Shown piece after piece: positions 8,952-16,945 of a DNA stretch of 43,073 nucleotides; positions within the stretch are counted from its first letter, which is position 1; every line of letters begins with the position of its first letter. The notes beneath the pieces are model-generated. The model had not been told where the DNA came from, did not search any database, and was given only the letters and a program-made list of their open reading frames with translations. Both the position numbers and the translations under genes were made by a program. The DNA lies in the NCBI GenBank assembly GCA_015056385.1, contig SVGI01000007.1:1-43073 (forward strand), written 5' to 3'. The DNA is from Clostridiales bacterium. Lineage in GTDB: Bacteria; Bacillota; Clostridia; HGM11327.

Positions 8952-8976
8952 TTGTTAATAATACAATTTAATTCTA

Positions 8977-9010
8977 AACCCTTTATCATTACGATAGAGG
9001 GTTTTATTTA
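8977..9010 (+). terminator. Terminator of the dehydrogenase gene
   Basis: AACCCTTTATC (8977-8987) pairs with GATAGAGGGTT (8993-9003) with one wobble, followed by TTATTTATT. Confidence 0.8.
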
Positions 9011-9016
9011 TTATTG

Positions 9017-9045
9017 TTGACATTTGTTTTTTGGCAGAATATAAT
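9017..9045 (+). promoter_or_regulatory. Sigma-A promoter of the propeller/UroD cassette
   Basis: TTGACA (9017-9022), 17 bases, TATAAT (9040-9045): both hexamers are perfect. The leader of about 60 bases holds an 8-bp AT-rich hairpin (9053-9060 with 9067-9074) before the ribosome binding site. Confidence 0.85.
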
Positions 9046-9110
9046 TACGAAAAAGATAATATATAAATTATCTTGAAAGCGATAAACCGTAACAGGGGAA
9101 AGGGTGCTTT

Positions 9111-11153
9111 ATGACAAGACAGGATGTGCTGAACTCAATGTTTCAGCAGCCGGCGAAGAACGAGGATTTCTTTTATCTTGTTCAGCAATCAGCCGTAAAA
9201 CATAAAGAGCTTGTACAGGATCCGATTTATAATGCAATATGGGATTTTGCAATAAGTCCCGAGGGAAGAATTTTCTTTTCTGCATGCGGTGAATGTCAAA
9301 ATGCCATATATGTAAAATTGTACGAGTATTTACCTGAAAGTGAGGAATTTCTTTGCCATTTTGCGTTGAATGATAAGGTTATACAGCACGACAGGGCAAT
9401 TCGCCCCAGTAAATTCCATACCGGTATTACCTTTATGCCGGACGGAAAAATGATTATGATTACCCATACCACAGCCAAATCTCACCTTCATCCCGATTGG
9501 CTTCCCAGGGTATATGCGGACCATCAGTTTGAGGCTTATCAGGGCTCAAACCTTCTCATTTACGACCCCAATACAGGCGAATTCAATGATTGCGGCATAA
9601 TGTCCCAATACGAAACCCTTTACGGTGGCGTGTATAATCATCATAATAATACCTATTATGCCTGCGGAATGCTTAAGGGCCATTTGTACGCATGTAATCT
9701 TACGGATATGTCCGTAAGGGATTACGGTCAGGTATCAGACGGACCCACCTGGAAATTTTACGTAGGTATAGACGGTAACGTTTATAGCGCAACCTATTCA
9801 GGCATACTCTTTATGATAGATAAGGATACAGGTGAGGTAACCTTCCTTCACGGCCTGCGTGTACCCACAAACCGCCCCTGCCAGCATATAACAGAGTATA
9901 AGAAGGACGGCACGCTGTTCTTCACACCCTCATATACAGTACCGCTTATGTGCAGCTATAATCCTGCAACAAAGGAATATAAAACGTATCCCAATGCAAT
10001 GCCTAAAAACCTTCCGGATGACTGCGCTTCTATACAGGGTATGGCGTTTGACTCAAAGGGACGTCTGTGGTATTCCTTGATGCAAAAGGCAAACGGCTGC
10101 AGACTTGCGATGTGGGATATATTTAACGGCGGTGAACCAATAGATTACGGCCAGGTAGGTACTCTTGCTACAAAGGGTATAGTATGCTCAACGGAGCTTT
10201 TGATTTACGACGATATAATTTATATTGCAGACTCAAACCATAATGACGACCCTGTTGGCGTTGTTGTTGTAGATATAAATAAGCTTGACGACGACTTTCT
10301 TAAGGACCCCTCTGGCAGAGAGAAGATCGTGGACTTCATTTGCTATAATACAGTAGAAAACGGCCGTGAAATGTGGCCCTACGGTAATATGGATGCTGTT
10401 ATCGAACGATGGATAGATAAGGTGCTTAAGGATGCCAATGATCCCCGCATCCGTACGGATGATAATGATGCATATTGCCCGTACCCGCCTGTTGCCGCAA
10501 ATGTTTTTTGGCATAAAATCGGAGAAAACAATACTCGTGTAAGACATATCGAATGGGCGGATAACGAAACTGTTACGGGTATAATAGGTAACGATAAGTT
10601 ATATAGCTTTACTATAAAAAATAACAAAATTGAACAGTTGATAGAAAACACCGGTGATAACGATATCCCGTCCTTACTGAAGACGTCTATACCTGAGGAA
10701 TTAAAGCTTCCCACTCATCCCGGCAGAAGATATCTTTCCAAGGCGGAATGTAGCGTAAAAATGGCAGACGGTACTGTTATTGTTGGCACCCACGACGGTA
10801 TGCTTGCAAGAATAAAGGACGGCAAGGTGTATTCTCTCGGTATGGTGGTTACCTGCGGAGGAGTACACTGCCTTTGCACAGATTCAACGGGTACAACGGT
10901 TTACGGCGTTGCAGGCTACGAGCTTGGCCTTGGATGTGTGTTTAAGTATGACGGTGAAAACGGGCTCAAGCTGCTTGGTATGTGCAAGGTTGCCCCTGCA
11001 TTCAGCGGCGATGGTGATGATGTTTATTGGTTCTATGTAACACAGCCTGTGGTTTGTGCGGTAAGCCCCGATAATACCAGGCTTGCCATCGGCACTGCGG
11101 ACAGAATGGGTGGAGTAGGTATATACTCACTTATTCCTCCGGAAGCAAAATAA
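9111..11153 (+). CDS. Beta-propeller-like protein of unknown function, copy 1
   Basis: I do not recognise a named family. The 680-residue protein has no signal peptide or membrane segment, so it should be cytoplasmic. It contains repeated blade-like strands of the type 'pDGk.yf.../D..tGe', for example SPEGRIFFSA, MPDGKMIMIT, DSKGRLWYSL and SPDNTRLAIGT, pointing to one or two beta-propellers. A histidine-rich central block is nearly identical in the second copy: KVIQHDRAIRPSKFHT (about residue 95), HTTA, DHQFEAYQGSN, GQVSDGP and VPTNRP. Such fixed histidines suggest a metal or active site and an enzyme rather than a scaffold; carbohydrate lyases and lactonases use this fold, but nothing here proves either. 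AAAGGGTG precedes the ATG. It is the first gene of a unit with the UroD-like gene and copy 2. Confidence 0.8.
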   Translation: MTRQDVLNSMFQQPAKNEDFFYLVQQSAVKHKELVQDPIYNAIWDFAISPEGRIFFSACGECQNAIYVKLYEYLPESEEFLCHFALNDKVIQHDRAIRPSKFHTGITFMPDGKMIMITHTTAKSHLHPDWLPRVYADHQFEAYQGSNLLIYDPNTGEFNDCGIMSQYETLYGGVYNHHNNTYYACGMLKGHLYACNLTDMSVRDYGQVSDGPTWKFYVGIDGNVYSATYSGILFMIDKDTGEVTFLHGLRVPTNRPCQHITEYKKDGTLFFTPSYTVPLMCSYNPATKEYKTYPNAMPKNLPDDCASIQGMAFDSKGRLWYSLMQKANGCRLAMWDIFNGGEPIDYGQVGTLATKGIVCSTELLIYDDIIYIADSNHNDDPVGVVVVDINKLDDDFLKDPSGREKIVDFICYNTVENGREMWPYGNMDAVIERWIDKVLKDANDPRIRTDDNDAYCPYPPVAANVFWHKIGENNTRVRHIEWADNETVTGIIGNDKLYSFTIKNNKIEQLIENTGDNDIPSLLKTSIPEELKLPTHPGRRYLSKAECSVKMADGTVIVGTHDGMLARIKDGKVYSLGMVVTCGGVHCLCTDSTGTTVYGVAGYELGLGCVFKYDGENGLKLLGMCKVAPAFSGDGDDVYWFYVTQPVVCAVSPDNTRLAIGTADRMGGVGIYSLIPPEAK

Positions 11154-11160
11154 GTAGACG

Positions 11161-11255
11161 GGTTTTGTGGCTTTCGCCACGGTCGCTGCGGCGATTTGCC
11201 ACGCAAAACCAACCCCAATTCCCCAAGAAAGGAAGGCTTTCCACAAACGAAAGCC
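11161..11255 (+). other. Folded intergenic element before the UroD-like gene
   Basis: The gap between the first two cassette genes is packed with inverted repeats and is more GC-rich than its surroundings. GGTTTTG (11161-11167) pairs with CAAAACC (11204-11210) and encloses GTGGC-TTTC-GCCAC (11167-11180) and TCGC-TGCG-GCGA (11183-11194). A second GCCAC (11198-11202) can compete for GTGGC. Farther on, GGCTTTC (11235-11241) and GAAAGCC (11249-11255) form a hairpin lying exactly between an AAAGGA ribosome binding site (11228-11233) and an ATG at 11256. It may be a regulatory RNA, a REP-like palindrome or an mRNA processing site. Confidence 0.55.
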
Positions 11256-11267
11256 ATGGTTATTATT

Positions 11268-12221
11268 ATGACTCACCGTGAAAAAATGATACGCGCTCTT
11301 GAGCGCAAGCCTATAACAGGTCTTGTGCCTCATATCGAGCTGGTTTTCTTTCTTACAATGGAGGCCTTTGGTTCCCCTCACATATCTCACCGTAGCTTTA
11401 ACCAGTGGGATCAGATGAGTGAAACAGAAAGAAATCTTTACAGAAACGATCATGCTGATCAGTACATAAAAATCTGTGAAAAATACGATCAGTCTGCGGC
11501 CTTCTTTCATCCGAATCCCTGGACCAATGATGAGATTATACGGTTGATGGAAATTTTTAGGGAAAAAACAGGGGACGAGTATTTTACAATGCTCCACGGA
11601 GATGCCACCTATTCCATACCGGACGGCAACAGCATGTATGATTTTTCGTATGCCCTGATAGATACACCTGAAAAGGTAAAGGACGATGCTCAAAAAATGG
11701 TGGACAGCGCTCTTGAGCAGGCATTGTGGCTCAAACAATACGGCCTTCTCGACGGATTTGCCCTTTGCTCCGACTATTGTCTTAATACAGGCCCTTTTTT
11801 AAGCCCTGATCAGTTTGGTGAATTTGTATATCCTTATCTTAAGGAGCTTATTGCAGGATACAGAGAAATGGGATATTACACCATAAAGCATACAGACGGC
11901 AACATAATGCCTATACTCGATTACCTTGTTGACGCCAATCCTCATGCTCTTCACTCAATCGACCCTCAGGCAGGTGTAGATATTAAGGAGGTAAAGGCTC
12001 TTGTCGGTGATAGAGTTTGTCTTATCGGTAACGTCAACTGTGGCTTGTTGCAGACAGGTACAGACGAAGAGGTTATTGAAAACTGTAAATACGCACTTAA
12101 GCACGGTATGCCCGGATACGGATATATATATTCAACATCCAACTGCATATATACAGGTATGGATCTTAAGCGTTATGAATTGATGCTTGAGGTACGTAAG
12201 CAGTACGGTATTTACGAATAA
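11268..12221 (+). CDS. Uroporphyrinogen decarboxylase (URO-D) family protein, not a haem enzyme by context
   Basis: The N-terminus THREKMIRALERK and the later blocks KHTDGNIMPILDYL, SIDPQAG, IGNVNCGLLQTGT and STSNCIYTGMDLKRYELM place this 317-residue protein in the URO-D/MtaA/CmuA superfamily of TIM-barrel proteins. MtaA-type methyltransferases bind zinc through His-X-Cys and a later Cys. Here the first site is His208-Thr-Asp210, with Cys258 and Cys293 farther on, so the classical zinc site is altered. No corrinoid protein or haem genes are nearby, so methyl transfer and haem synthesis are both unsupported. It lies between two paralogous propeller genes and probably acts with them. ATG 11268 matches the family start; ATG 11256 is possible and directly follows a hairpin. 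Confidence 0.85.
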   Translation: MTHREKMIRALERKPITGLVPHIELVFFLTMEAFGSPHISHRSFNQWDQMSETERNLYRNDHADQYIKICEKYDQSAAFFHPNPWTNDEIIRLMEIFREKTGDEYFTMLHGDATYSIPDGNSMYDFSYALIDTPEKVKDDAQKMVDSALEQALWLKQYGLLDGFALCSDYCLNTGPFLSPDQFGEFVYPYLKELIAGYREMGYYTIKHTDGNIMPILDYLVDANPHALHSIDPQAGVDIKEVKALVGDRVCLIGNVNCGLLQTGTDEEVIENCKYALKHGMPGYGYIYSTSNCIYTGMDLKRYELMLEVRKQYGIYE

Positions 12222-12235
12222 ATGAGGATAAAACT

Positions 12236-14338
12236 ATGAGTAATATTTTCACCAAAGAAGAAATTGTCAAAAGAATTTGCAATAAAATGGAGGCGCAGCC
12301 ACCTGAATTCTTTTATACTGTCCCTAAGGAAGCGCAGACTCACAGCATACTCACAGCCGAACCTATGCACAATGCAATTTGGGATATGAACGTCAGGGAA
12401 GACGGACGTGTTTTTATTGCTGTTTGCGGAGAGGTAATGTTTGACGTATACGTTAAGCTTTACGAATATGTTTATGAAAAAAATGAATTCAGGCATATTT
12501 TTGATTTTAACCACAAGGTAATACAGCACGATAGAGCCATACGTCCAAGTAAATTTCACACCTCAATTTCATTTCTTCCGGACGGAAAGCTTATAATGTC
12601 AACTCATACCACTGCACGTGCCTCGGGCCACCCTGCTTGGTTGCCCCGTTCCTTTGCAAACCACCAGTTTGAGGGGTACCAGGGCTCAAACGTTGTAATA
12701 TGCGACCCCGATACGGGCTTTTTCCGTAATCTCGGTATTCTTGCTCAGGCAGAAACAATATACGGCGGTGTATATAATCCTCATAATAACCATTTTTACG
12801 GTGTAGGTATGTTCAAGGGGAATCTTTACGACTGCGACCTGGATACTTTAGGGGTTGTAAACAGGGGCCAGGTATCAGACGGACCTATATGGAAGCTTGT
12901 CGTAGGTAAGGATACAAACGTATATTCAGCCACGTTCTCAGGCGTATTATTCAGAATACTTTCCGAAACGGGTGAGGTTGAATATTTCGAGGATTACAGA
13001 GTTCCCACAAACAGGCCTAATCAGCATATTCCTCAACTTGAGGACGGAACAATGCTGTTTACCCCCTCATATTCAACAGCTGAATTTTGTACGTTTAACC
13101 CCTTAACAGGTGAATATAAGAGATACCCTTCAGGAATGCCTAAAACCCTTCCGTGGGATTGCGGCGGTGTTCTCGGTGCTGATTTTGACAGCAAGGGTTG
13201 CCTTTGGTATGCAATAAAGCAGAGGTATACTCCCGGCAGCAGGCTTGTAAAATGGGATATCTTCAACGGTGGAGAGCCTGTGGATATAGGTGTAATCGGT
13301 CATCCGGACGTCAGAACGGATTACTGTACGTCAGAGCTTATAATCCATGACGATATAATCTATATTGCAGACTCAAATCACGGTGAGGATCCGGTAGGTA
13401 TAGTTGCAGTTGATATCAGAAAGATTACTCAAAAGGCACTTTCCTCAAAAAGAGATCTTACAAAGGATTTCGATTTCTACACAGGCGTAGCAAACGGAGG
13501 GGATATGTGGCCTCACGGGGACTATGCAAAGCGCCTGGAAGAATATATAGATGCTGCTTACAACGGCCAGGATTTTAACGTGGCAGAGCACGACGAATTT
13601 GAAATTGTCGCTCCCTATGAATTTGAAAGCGCAGTTATACTGTGGCCGAGAATTGGCGTTGAAAATACCAAAGTTATAGATATGGCTTGGATAGATAACG
13701 AAACGATAGAGGCTGTATGTACAGGTGAAAAAACCTTTATCGTACGTATAAAGAACGGTAAGCTTGAAAAAATCACCCAATCTAACAGAGATGGCGCAAT
13801 GCGAAGCGCTCTTCACGCCAAGATTCCTGAGGGTCTTGTATTCCCATGCCATCCCGGAAGGCAGTATTTGTCCCATCCCGAATCAAGCGTAAAAATGGCA
13901 GACGGCAGTATTATTGCCGGCTCTTACGACGGTATGCTTTCCCGTATAAAGGACGGTAAGGTATATTCACTCGGTATGGTTGTTACCTGCGGCGGAATAC
14001 ACAGTATGTGTGTCGATAGCACAGGCACGAAGGTATACGGCGTTGCAGGCTACAGCGAGGCGTTGGGTACTGTATTTACCTACGATGATGAAAACGGAAT
14101 TGTTATACAGGGAATGTGCGGTATAGGCGGCGAGGAGGATCCGGACAGGGAGGCTGCAGCTGTTTACGAGCAGATAGACGTTGAAAACGTTGGATATACA
14201 GATAATCCCAACAAAAACAGATACTTCGTTTTCTACGCAACACAGCCCATATCCTGCGCAATAAGCCCTGATGATAAATACCTTGCCATAGGCACTGCAG
14301 ATAAGCTTGGCGGTGTAGGCATTTACAAGCTTAAATAA
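12236..14338 (+). CDS. Beta-propeller-like protein of unknown function, copy 2
   Basis: Paralogue of the protein at 9111-11153 over nearly its whole 700 residues, again without signal peptide or membrane segment. The same blocks recur in the same order: NAIWD near residue 48, KVIQHDRAIRPSKFHT, THTTAR, NHQFEGYQGSN, ETIYGGVYN, GQVSDGP, VPTNRP, WDIFNGGEP, IIYIADSNH.EDPVG, HPGR.YLS, SSVKMADG, YDGMLSRIKDGKVYSLGM and VVTCGG. Copy 2 carries an insertion of about 20 residues before the last blade (after GIGGEEDPDREAA). Nucleotide divergence is considerable, so the duplication is old and both copies are kept under selection. This suggests two related but non-identical substrates or a heteromer. GAGGA is eight bases before the ATG, and the gap after the UroD-like gene is 14 bases. 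Confidence 0.8.
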   Translation: MSNIFTKEEIVKRICNKMEAQPPEFFYTVPKEAQTHSILTAEPMHNAIWDMNVREDGRVFIAVCGEVMFDVYVKLYEYVYEKNEFRHIFDFNHKVIQHDRAIRPSKFHTSISFLPDGKLIMSTHTTARASGHPAWLPRSFANHQFEGYQGSNVVICDPDTGFFRNLGILAQAETIYGGVYNPHNNHFYGVGMFKGNLYDCDLDTLGVVNRGQVSDGPIWKLVVGKDTNVYSATFSGVLFRILSETGEVEYFEDYRVPTNRPNQHIPQLEDGTMLFTPSYSTAEFCTFNPLTGEYKRYPSGMPKTLPWDCGGVLGADFDSKGCLWYAIKQRYTPGSRLVKWDIFNGGEPVDIGVIGHPDVRTDYCTSELIIHDDIIYIADSNHGEDPVGIVAVDIRKITQKALSSKRDLTKDFDFYTGVANGGDMWPHGDYAKRLEEYIDAAYNGQDFNVAEHDEFEIVAPYEFESAVILWPRIGVENTKVIDMAWIDNETIEAVCTGEKTFIVRIKNGKLEKITQSNRDGAMRSALHAKIPEGLVFPCHPGRQYLSHPESSVKMADGSIIAGSYDGMLSRIKDGKVYSLGMVVTCGGIHSMCVDSTGTKVYGVAGYSEALGTVFTYDDENGIVIQGMCGIGGEEDPDREAAAVYEQIDVENVGYTDNPNKNRYFVFYATQPISCAISPDDKYLAIGTADKLGGVGIYKLK

Positions 14339-14385
14339 GTAAAAACGAAAACTCAGCCTTATTGCTGTGTGTCTGTAAAATATTT

Positions 14386-14422
14386 AACGGAGCGCATCTG
14401 AACAGATACGCTCCGTTTTTTA
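14386..14422 (+). terminator. Terminator of the propeller/UroD cassette
   Basis: ACGGAGCG and CGCTCCGT (ending near 14416) form an 8-bp stem extended past one mismatch by ATCTG/CAGAT, followed by TTTTTT. This closes the unit that starts at the 9017-9045 promoter. Confidence 0.88.
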
Positions 14423-15299: not shown

Positions 15300-16064
15300 T
15301 TATTTCCCTTTTGATTTTTCCTTTATTTTTGCAGAAATCATTGCTTCAGATATGCGGTATATAAACTGTAGGTTAGATGGCTTGCCCTTTTCCTCGCTTA
15401 CTGTAAATCCAAACATCTCCTCAAGCTTGTCCAGATTACCCTCTGTCCAGGTTTTTTCAATAGCGGTTCTGATTGAGCGCTCCACAGCCGCAGGTGTTGT
15501 TGCGTACCTTGACGATATGGTGGTGTAAAGCTCAATGGCAGATTTCTGTGTATTGCTTGCAGATACAATTCTAACAGCCTCGGCAATATACGCCGTACCC
15601 TTGTGATTGCTTACAAACCCCATAGAAACAAGAACCTCTGTAATATCATGGAGGGGCTTTGTAAGCAAAAGCCTGTCTTCAGAATCGTTATTGGGAGAAA
15701 ATTTATTAACAGAGGAAAGTACGTTTATAAACTCACCGATTTTGAAGGGCTTCTGGAAGAAATAATCCGCACCCTGTGAAGAAAGAGAGTCCATAAATGA
15801 AGAATCGCTGATGGGTATAAGCACAACGGTAATGATTTTATCCGATATATCCTTAAAGGCCTTTATTATTTCAACAGTTTTTGTGTAATCCGTTGAATGG
15901 TCTATTACGGCTATGTCCGGTATAAAAAACGAGCAAACCTCACCTATTTCTGCAACAGAATTTATCCTTGCAGAAATAGAAATATCACTTTTGTTAAAGG
16001 ATATAAAGTTTGATATCGTGTTGAAAACATTGTCGTTTTGTATTACAAAAAATACGTCGGTCAT
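15300..16064 (-). CDS. Spo0A-like response regulator with a degenerate receiver domain
   Basis: Residues about 137-250 match the Spo0A DNA-binding domain closely: ITEVLVSMGFVSNHKGTAYI, AEAVRIV, TTPAAVERSIRTAIEKTW, TEGNLD, MFGFTVSEEKGKPSN. That domain binds 0A boxes. The first 120 residues are receiver-like, ending in GADYFFQKPFKIGEF with the conserved Lys105, and Asp55 in AVIDHS is the likely phosphoacceptor. The usual N-terminal acidic pair reads QND, with one acid left, and the switch Thr/Ser is replaced by Ile83. Control by ordinary phosphorelay is therefore doubtful. It may be a divergent Spo0A or a second, phosphorylation-independent paralogue; spoIVB, the usual spo0A neighbour, is absent. 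It is the second gene after the phosphatase, with an 18-base gap and AGGA before the ATG. Confidence 0.82.
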   Translation of the reverse strand: MTDVFFVIQNDNVFNTISNFISFNKSDISISARINSVAEIGEVCSFFIPDIAVIDHSTDYTKTVEIIKAFKDISDKIITVVLIPISDSSFMDSLSSQGADYFFQKPFKIGEFINVLSSVNKFSPNNDSEDRLLLTKPLHDITEVLVSMGFVSNHKGTAYIAEAVRIVSASNTQKSAIELYTTISSRYATTPAAVERSIRTAIEKTWTEGNLDKLEEMFGFTVSEEKGKPSNLQFIYRISEAMISAKIKEKSKGK

Positions 16065-16082: not shown

Positions 16083-16883
16083 TTATCTTATAATATCCGA
16101 TATATCGGCTTTTCTTAATCCTATGGTGTTAATAAGGGTGTCTACTTCATTAAAACAGCACAAAAGATTTTGCGGAGAATGGGCATCTGCACCGAATAAT
16201 ACGGGGATATCCATATCCCTTACCATACCGAGAAGATGGCGTGGCGGGTATAAAACATCTCTACCTCTGCTCATGGCACCGGTATTTATTTCCAGAAAAA
16301 TACCAAGCCTTTTTACCTCCTTAAGGGCATTGTAAAGTTCGTCTGTAAAAACCTTATCAGACTCATCGTAATATTTGAAGTCTACGTTACGCCTTGATAT
16401 AAGGTCTATATGTGCCGCGATTTGGGGCCTTAACGAATTAAGCATATTACGGTATTTTTCAAAATACGTACGTACAAATTTGTGTGAATCTCCCTTGAAT
16501 TCACTTTCAAAAAGGATATCCACCTCACTCTGGCTTGCATCCACAGTAGCCTTATCAGGGGCAAGGTAATGTACTGCGCCTATTACGTAATCAAATGCGG
16601 ATAAATCGTATCCGCAGGCAGAGGGTGCGTACAACTCATCGAAATAATCAAGCTCCAGCCCCATACGGATATTAAGGGAGCTGTATTCATTTTTAAGCTG
16701 TGAAATTGCGCAAATATACCCATCCAATTTACTCATAGGCATATTCCAGGATGAATCAAAGGGTACAGGGGCATGGTCTGAAAAGCCCAGGGTACTCATA
16801 CCGTTGGATATGGCGTATTTAACATATTCAACAGGCGCTGCAATACCGTCAGAAAAGGCTGTATGAGTATGAAAATTGTACAT
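16083..16883 (-). CDS. hisJ: Histidinol-phosphatase, HisJ/HisK (PHP) family
   Basis: PHP-domain metallophosphatase; the family removes phosphate from histidinol phosphate in histidine synthesis. Metal-binding motifs are seen in order: FHTHTAFSDG at residues 4-13, GFSDHAPVPFD, GLELDYF, VIGAVHYL, AAHIDLI, EINTGAMSRG and FGADAHSP. The ATG at 16881-16883 is chosen because AAAGGA lies six bases upstream and the promoter -10 at 16917-16922 rules out a longer start. Length 266 is normal. No other his genes are present, and it is cotranscribed with a Spo0A-like regulator. Its real substrate could therefore be another phosphate ester. Confidence 0.88.
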   Translation of the reverse strand: MYNFHTHTAFSDGIAAPVEYVKYAISNGMSTLGFSDHAPVPFDSSWNMPMSKLDGYICAISQLKNEYSSLNIRMGLELDYFDELYAPSACGYDLSAFDYVIGAVHYLAPDKATVDASQSEVDILFESEFKGDSHKFVRTYFEKYRNMLNSLRPQIAAHIDLISRRNVDFKYYDESDKVFTDELYNALKEVKRLGIFLEINTGAMSRGRDVLYPPRHLLGMVRDMDIPVLFGADAHSPQNLLCCFNEVDTLINTIGLRKADISDIIR

Positions 16884-16916
16884 ATTTATTCCTTTGAAAG
16901 CGCATATATTTAGACA

Positions 16917-16945
16917 ATTATAGTTCAAAGATATGAAAAAGGCAA
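16917..16945 (-). promoter_or_regulatory. Promoter of the hisJ/Spo0A-like operon
   Basis: On the minus strand, TTGCCT lies 17 bases before TATAAT (16917-16922). The -35 is a weak match and the -10 perfect. The predicted start near 16910 gives a leader of about 27 bases. Confidence 0.6.

Follow-up and report, generated by a model that had tools for sequence, protein, structure and literature searches.

Virginiamycin B lyase (Vgb) is a C–O lyase built on a seven-bladed propeller, whose activity depends on histidine and glutamate residues. The propeller lyases of families PL24, PL25 and PL42 act on polysaccharides and are usually extracellular. They rely on a neighbouring pair of histidines, followed by a tyrosine and an arginine (PMC8377490). 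Tandem propellers are also found in BT4663, BT4673 and BT3049, where they form the periplasmic parts of membrane sensors. Another fold relevant to the locus described below is that of UroD, which is found in MtaA, CmuA and CdmB. The last of these, from Acetobacterium, is a zinc-free corrinoid methyltransferase of the UroD superfamily (PMC13222342).

The stretch of DNA analyzed here (the window, 43,073 nt) comes from a Clostridiales bacterium (assembly GCA_015056385.1, contig SVGI01000007.1, positions 1–43,073 of the forward strand). It encodes two propeller proteins, PropA and PropB, on either side of a UroD-like protein, a grouping in which an earlier note, made from the bare sequence, had seen a possible three-component catabolic route. 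PropA and PropB are diverged copies of a rare, undescribed two-domain beta-propeller family, and the three-gene grouping is not a conserved pathway.

Organization of the Locus

The three genes all lie on the forward strand with open reading frames: PropA (9111–11153, 680 amino acids), the UroD-like gene (11268–12221) and PropB (12236–14338, 700 amino acids), the last two being separated by 14 nt. A second in-frame ATG of the UroD-like ORF is found at 11256, the conserved start being the one at 11268. The unit is limited upstream by the forward-strand terminator of an isocitrate/isopropylmalate-dehydrogenase-like gene (8976–9004, −15.2 kcal/mol, z −6.3). Straight after this hairpin comes a promoter-like site on the same strand (9017–9045), TTGACA-N17-TATAAT, which agrees with the sigma-70 consensus at 12 of 12 positions and is a consensus match only. 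The unit ends with a hairpin followed by a T run (14386–14417, −18.2 kcal/mol, z −5.6), the stem of which is predicted to be functional on the reverse strand too. The layout, the coordinates, the quoted motifs, the unit's own promoter and its strong terminator were thus all recovered as first described. The UroD-like gene is probably co-transcribed with PropA and PropB. Beyond the unit, the reverse strand at 15300–16064 encodes a Spo0A C-terminal domain with only a weak receiver-domain match, possibly a divergent Spo0A.

The spacer between PropA and the UroD-like gene (11159–11265, forward strand), which contains the SD-like AAGAAAGGAAGG and hairpins and abuts the UroD start, is one copy of a dispersed leader repeat of about 107 nt. 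The host genome holds about 28 matches to this repeat, about 27 of them beyond the window (L118–L147). One match was found in the sister genus (G001), and none in 39 other relatives searched at the same threshold. Of 22 copies checked, including the one from the sister genus, 21 are in sense orientation to an ORF of 60 or more amino acids and reach to within a few bases of its start; the downstream genes are unrelated to each other. The best-conserved stretch is the SD-like GAAAGGAAG, after which comes a hairpin; most copies also have an upstream palindrome, CGTGAAAAA-TTTTTCACG, which the window copy lacks. The copies show weak covariation in RNAalifold, and an Rfam search with the repeat gave nothing above the gathering score.

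A Rare Family of Two-Domain Propellers

PropA and PropB are 51–53% identical (51% across 694 amino acids, E = 0). The paralogy proposed for them is confirmed by a maximum-likelihood tree, in which they are sisters (support 100/100) and the pair joins the relatives at L011, L012, L013 and L016 (100/99). A third propeller paralogue of the host, more distant at 33% identity, is encoded on another contig (C62, 558–2435; L003), upstream of ORFs reading as a HAD-type phosphatase and an adenylate kinase. Full-length members occur in 7 of 391 genomes of the class, host counted in, with weak partial matches in 10 further ones. A scan of GTDB contigs with two peptide patterns, one spanning residues 145–153, retrieved 33 propeller loci. 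They are mostly from Clostridia MAGs, many of them recovered from the gut of goats, deer, sheep and buffalo; Paenibacillus, two Verrucomicrobia and one planctomycete are also represented. Side-by-side pairs are also present in L015, L029 and L030, so that duplication is recurrent in the family. Mobility on plasmids or phages was rejected, since no propeller match was found on the plasmids and viral contigs searched.

Neither protein reaches the threshold of any Pfam or NCBIfam family, and the WD40 repeat model PF00400 stays at 16–20 bits, below its cut-off of 27. Sequence searches of the PDB returned chance matches or generic repeat proteins and no informative entry; profile matches such as the designed “Cake” propellers were dismissed as generic repeat matches. 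Pfam, NCBIfam and PDB sequence searches thus gave no close match of the propellers to a characterized family. The literature consulted on lyase-like propellers and on UroD-like genes in sugar loci contained nothing specific to this family.

The beta-propeller-like fold suggested for both copies is borne out by an AlphaFold2 model of PropB built with 36 family members, which is a confidently predicted tandem propeller (pLDDT 86.2, pTM 0.87); a separate model of domain 1 (residues 1–402) has a pLDDT of 89. With blades counted from the strands of the secondary structure, domain 1 looks like a seven-bladed propeller; a helical linker connects it to another set of blades, which is smaller. No strong N-terminal hydrophobic stretch or signal peptide was seen in PropA or PropB, which suggests that both are cytosolic.

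A whole-chain Foldseek search of the PDB returned tandem WD40 proteins and double-propeller sensors, with BT4663, BT4673 and BT3049 among the best full-length fold matches. The best single-propeller match, and the nearest to domain 1, is Vgb (2z2n/2z2o/2z2p; E 2e-11, TM 0.74–0.77 by target length). Vgb differs from the window proteins in being a single domain of about 295 amino acids, with about 12% identity to them, and no sequence match to it was obtained in Pfam, NCBIfam or the PDB sequence search (2z2n). About 1,400 PDB chains match the propeller fold at E < 0.001, so the fold alone is uninformative about the chemistry.

Conserved Residues and Possible Function of the Propellers

More is provided by the residues themselves. 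In an alignment of 36 diverse family sequences, with a mean column identity of 37%, fourteen positions never change (PropB numbering): W49, D50, E66, S105, K106, H108, H124, T126, H132, W135, E146, S151, Y176 and Y180. H143 is kept in 34 of the 36, and 35 have a basic residue, Arg or Lys, at position 194. The invariant ionizable residues are concentrated between residues 49 and 180 of domain 1, and all of them are retained in both PropA and PropB. A putative active-site segment can be delineated at residues 106–152 of PropB (12551–12691, forward strand), with K106, H108, H124, T126, H132, W135 and E146 invariant and H143 nearly so. These same seven residues are kept in L065, a relative retrieved by an independent profile search, which has Asn in place of H143 and Gly in place of S151. 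Conservation at residues 145–153 is partly a matter of ascertainment, because one of the GTDB search patterns covered them. The histidine-rich core had been proposed as an active or metal site: its histidines H108, H124 and H132 have the invariance expected of an active site, whereas the arginine of the quoted motif (R100) is present in just 24 of 36 sequences. Invariance of such a set across 36 diverse sequences points to domain 1 as the part that probably holds the active site.

Comparison with the propeller lyases brings a further clue. The order of the PL24, PL25 and PL42 residues recurs in the family as H108, H124, Y176/Y180 and R/K194, but the spacing differs, being 16/52–56/14–18 as against 20/45/16 in PL42. 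These lyases gave no sequence match in Pfam or among PDB chains and are absent from the top 50 fold matches. Because of this shared His-His-Tyr-Arg/Lys order, a histidine-based C–O lyase is the most concrete guess that can be made. In the mechanism that we propose, H108, H124, H132, K106, E66, E146, Y176, Y180 and R/K194 would form a catalytic site that works by histidine acid-base chemistry, whether or not it binds a metal. The reaction may be the cleavage of a C–O bond in a small sugar, sugar-acid or lactone-type substrate, on the model of Vgb and the propeller polysaccharide lyases. Domain 2 would have a structural or substrate-binding role, and the specificities of PropA and PropB have probably diverged.

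These proposals do not all deserve the same credit. We lean towards regarding the propellers as enzymes. That they act as C–O lyases or hydrolases on a sugar-acid-like compound is a tentative suggestion, and a strict lyase is distinctly unlikely; a hydrolase or a metal-dependent mechanism is just as conceivable.

The genes found around the propeller loci point to carbohydrate or small-molecule catabolism, as a tendency in a heterogeneous set and not as an enrichment. They encode ribose-type and other sugar ABC transporters, amidohydrolases, GntR and AraC regulators and M20 peptidases, as well as GH123-like, GH2, DUF4838 and melibiase proteins. Within the family to which the host belongs, uncharacterized PFL-like glycyl-radical enzymes and a PHP protein adjoin the propellers. 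PFL-like enzymes are next to or near propellers in L030, L008, L040, L042 and L073; L030 has four of them in a row, followed by two propellers and a PHP-domain gene, and in L073 (genome G082) a single-propeller relative has a PFL-like ORF on one side and an activase-like ORF on the other. The PHP-domain gene of the window (16083–16928) was considered as a possible link and dropped, as it is only 24–25% identical to the PHP genes that stand beside the tandem propellers of G002 and G003. An AraC regulator and NamZ, an exo-N-acetylmuramidase, are encoded beside those propellers that are most closely related to PropA and PropB (L011, L012, L016). Muramic-acid metabolism was rejected as a general function, since NamZ is present in the sister clade and had no match in the host.

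The alternative that survives best, while still unlikely, is that the propellers bind or sense a ligand and are not enzymes, being cytosolic cousins of the Bacteroides double-propeller sensors. Two of these periplasmic sensors, BT4663 and BT4673, do figure among the top PDB fold matches, in a list dominated by WD40-like proteins, and a sensor or scaffold with a conserved binding site would show a comparable residue pattern. An invariant lysine, three histidines, two glutamates and two tyrosines within one segment would nevertheless be unusual for a scaffold. Moreover, the window proteins show no signal peptide and no sensor or kinase part, in contrast with the membrane sensors, and the AraC and GntR regulators are separate genes. 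The enzymatic reading is the one retained here.

The UroD-Like Protein

The protein encoded between the two propellers has the UroD fold, as first proposed: it matches URO-D (PF01208) with 72.9 bits against a gathering cut-off of 23.9 (E = 3e-20). It is far below the more specific models, with 21.5 bits against 303 for the HemE equivalog and 46–51 bits against thresholds of 235–244 for the MtaA-type NCBIfam families. The reported loss of the His-X-Cys zinc pattern also holds, since H-X-D (KHTDGN) replaces the H-X-C of MtaA and CmuA in this protein and in nine orthologues (10 of 10 aligned). Its best PDB match is CdmB, which shares both the fold and the lack of zinc. Because CdmB works without zinc, the loss of the motif says little about methyl transfer.

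About 26 of the 391 genomes searched from the class contain orthologues with 44–64% identity. Some of these orthologues stand beside a corrinoid activator of RACo or AcsV/RamA-like type (L106, L108, L109), in L109 directly downstream of an AcsV/RamA-like gene, or beside a DUF2284 gene (L105, L106, L108, L114); others adjoin GH38 mannosidases or a 3-keto-disaccharide hydrolase. In the host, the genome of which is 84.6% complete, a RACo search gave no match, and the sole PF02607 corrinoid-binding helical domain found lies inside a MetH-like ORF, the only candidate corrinoid partner found. The 1.45-Mb host genome, with no detected corrinoid activator, has nine URO-D family matches, eight besides that of the window, spread over contigs C12, C14, C18, C36, C40, C71 and others.

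Another reading is that the UroD-like protein works as a corrinoid-linked methyltransferase without zinc, of the CdmB or MtaA-like type, and that its demethylated product is processed by the propellers. The MtaA-type matches, the dispensability of zinc in CdmB (PMC13222342) and the orthologues close to corrinoid activators or DUF2284 genes speak for it. The host shows none of this context: no corrinoid gene is adjacent to the unit, as had been reported, the single corrinoid-binding domain belongs to a MetH-like ORF and RACo was not matched, a result to which the genome's incompleteness leaves some room. This reading is quite improbable, and corrinoid demethylation in the host was rejected since no activator was found in the 84.6%-complete genome.

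Association of the Three Genes

The idea of a dedicated catabolic route, in which the propellers would open or cleave a substrate and the UroD-like protein would strip it of a carboxyl or methyl group, draws on the single promoter and terminator enclosing the three genes and on the short gap between UroD and PropB. Gene co-occurrence had been named beforehand as its test. When a UroD profile was run on all genes of the propeller loci, this UroD was found beside a propeller in the window only. A different subfamily, with an HCC motif, stands 370 bp from a propeller in a Verrucomicrobia locus (L027), which can be counted in favor of the route; in L039 and L040, a UroD gene lies 6 and 7.5 kb away. 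No URO-D match was found in 9 of 33 genomes searched, including all four with the nearest, sister-clade propellers, so propeller function can do without UroD. Conversely, close UroD orthologues occur in genomes without full-length propellers. The dispersed repeat between PropA and UroD, the missing RACo match and the MetH location of the one corrinoid-binding domain also argue against a dedicated route. The three genes being rarely together, the proposed three-component pathway is not supported; a conserved propeller–UroD pathway was rejected on neighborhood and distribution data, and a dedicated three-gene route is only a slight possibility.

That PropA and UroD were joined by an assembly accident at the repeat in this draft genome is highly improbable: two of the ~28 matches do lie at contig ends, but the repeat, with a length of just about 107 nt, is shorter than usual read pairs, and the adjacency of PropA and PropB is expected for sister paralogues in a family with recurrent side-by-side pairs (L015, L029, L030).

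The reading that we prefer is that the UroD-like gene belongs to a separate HxD subfamily and became lodged between the propeller copies in the host lineage, its product being a locally recruited passenger and not an obligate partner of the propeller function. The model as a whole, with cytosolic propeller enzymes acting as C–O lyases or hydrolases, duplicated and diverged, and UroD as a passenger, is put forward tentatively. A bolder version, which we find rather doubtful, would see here cytosolic double-propeller enzymes of a new class, with an active site made up of Lys/His/His/His/Glu and an undescribed reaction, sparsely spread among gut Clostridia, Verrucomicrobia and Planctomycetes, and recruited beside glycyl-radical enzymes in certain lineages and, in that of the window, beside a UroD-fold enzyme.

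Implications

The three-gene “pathway” should no longer be regarded as a conserved system. An unnamed propeller family that keeps strict, catalytic-looking residues across a large divergence is well worth considering as a new family of enzymes, found in bacteria of the animal gut and with conserved residues available for mutation.
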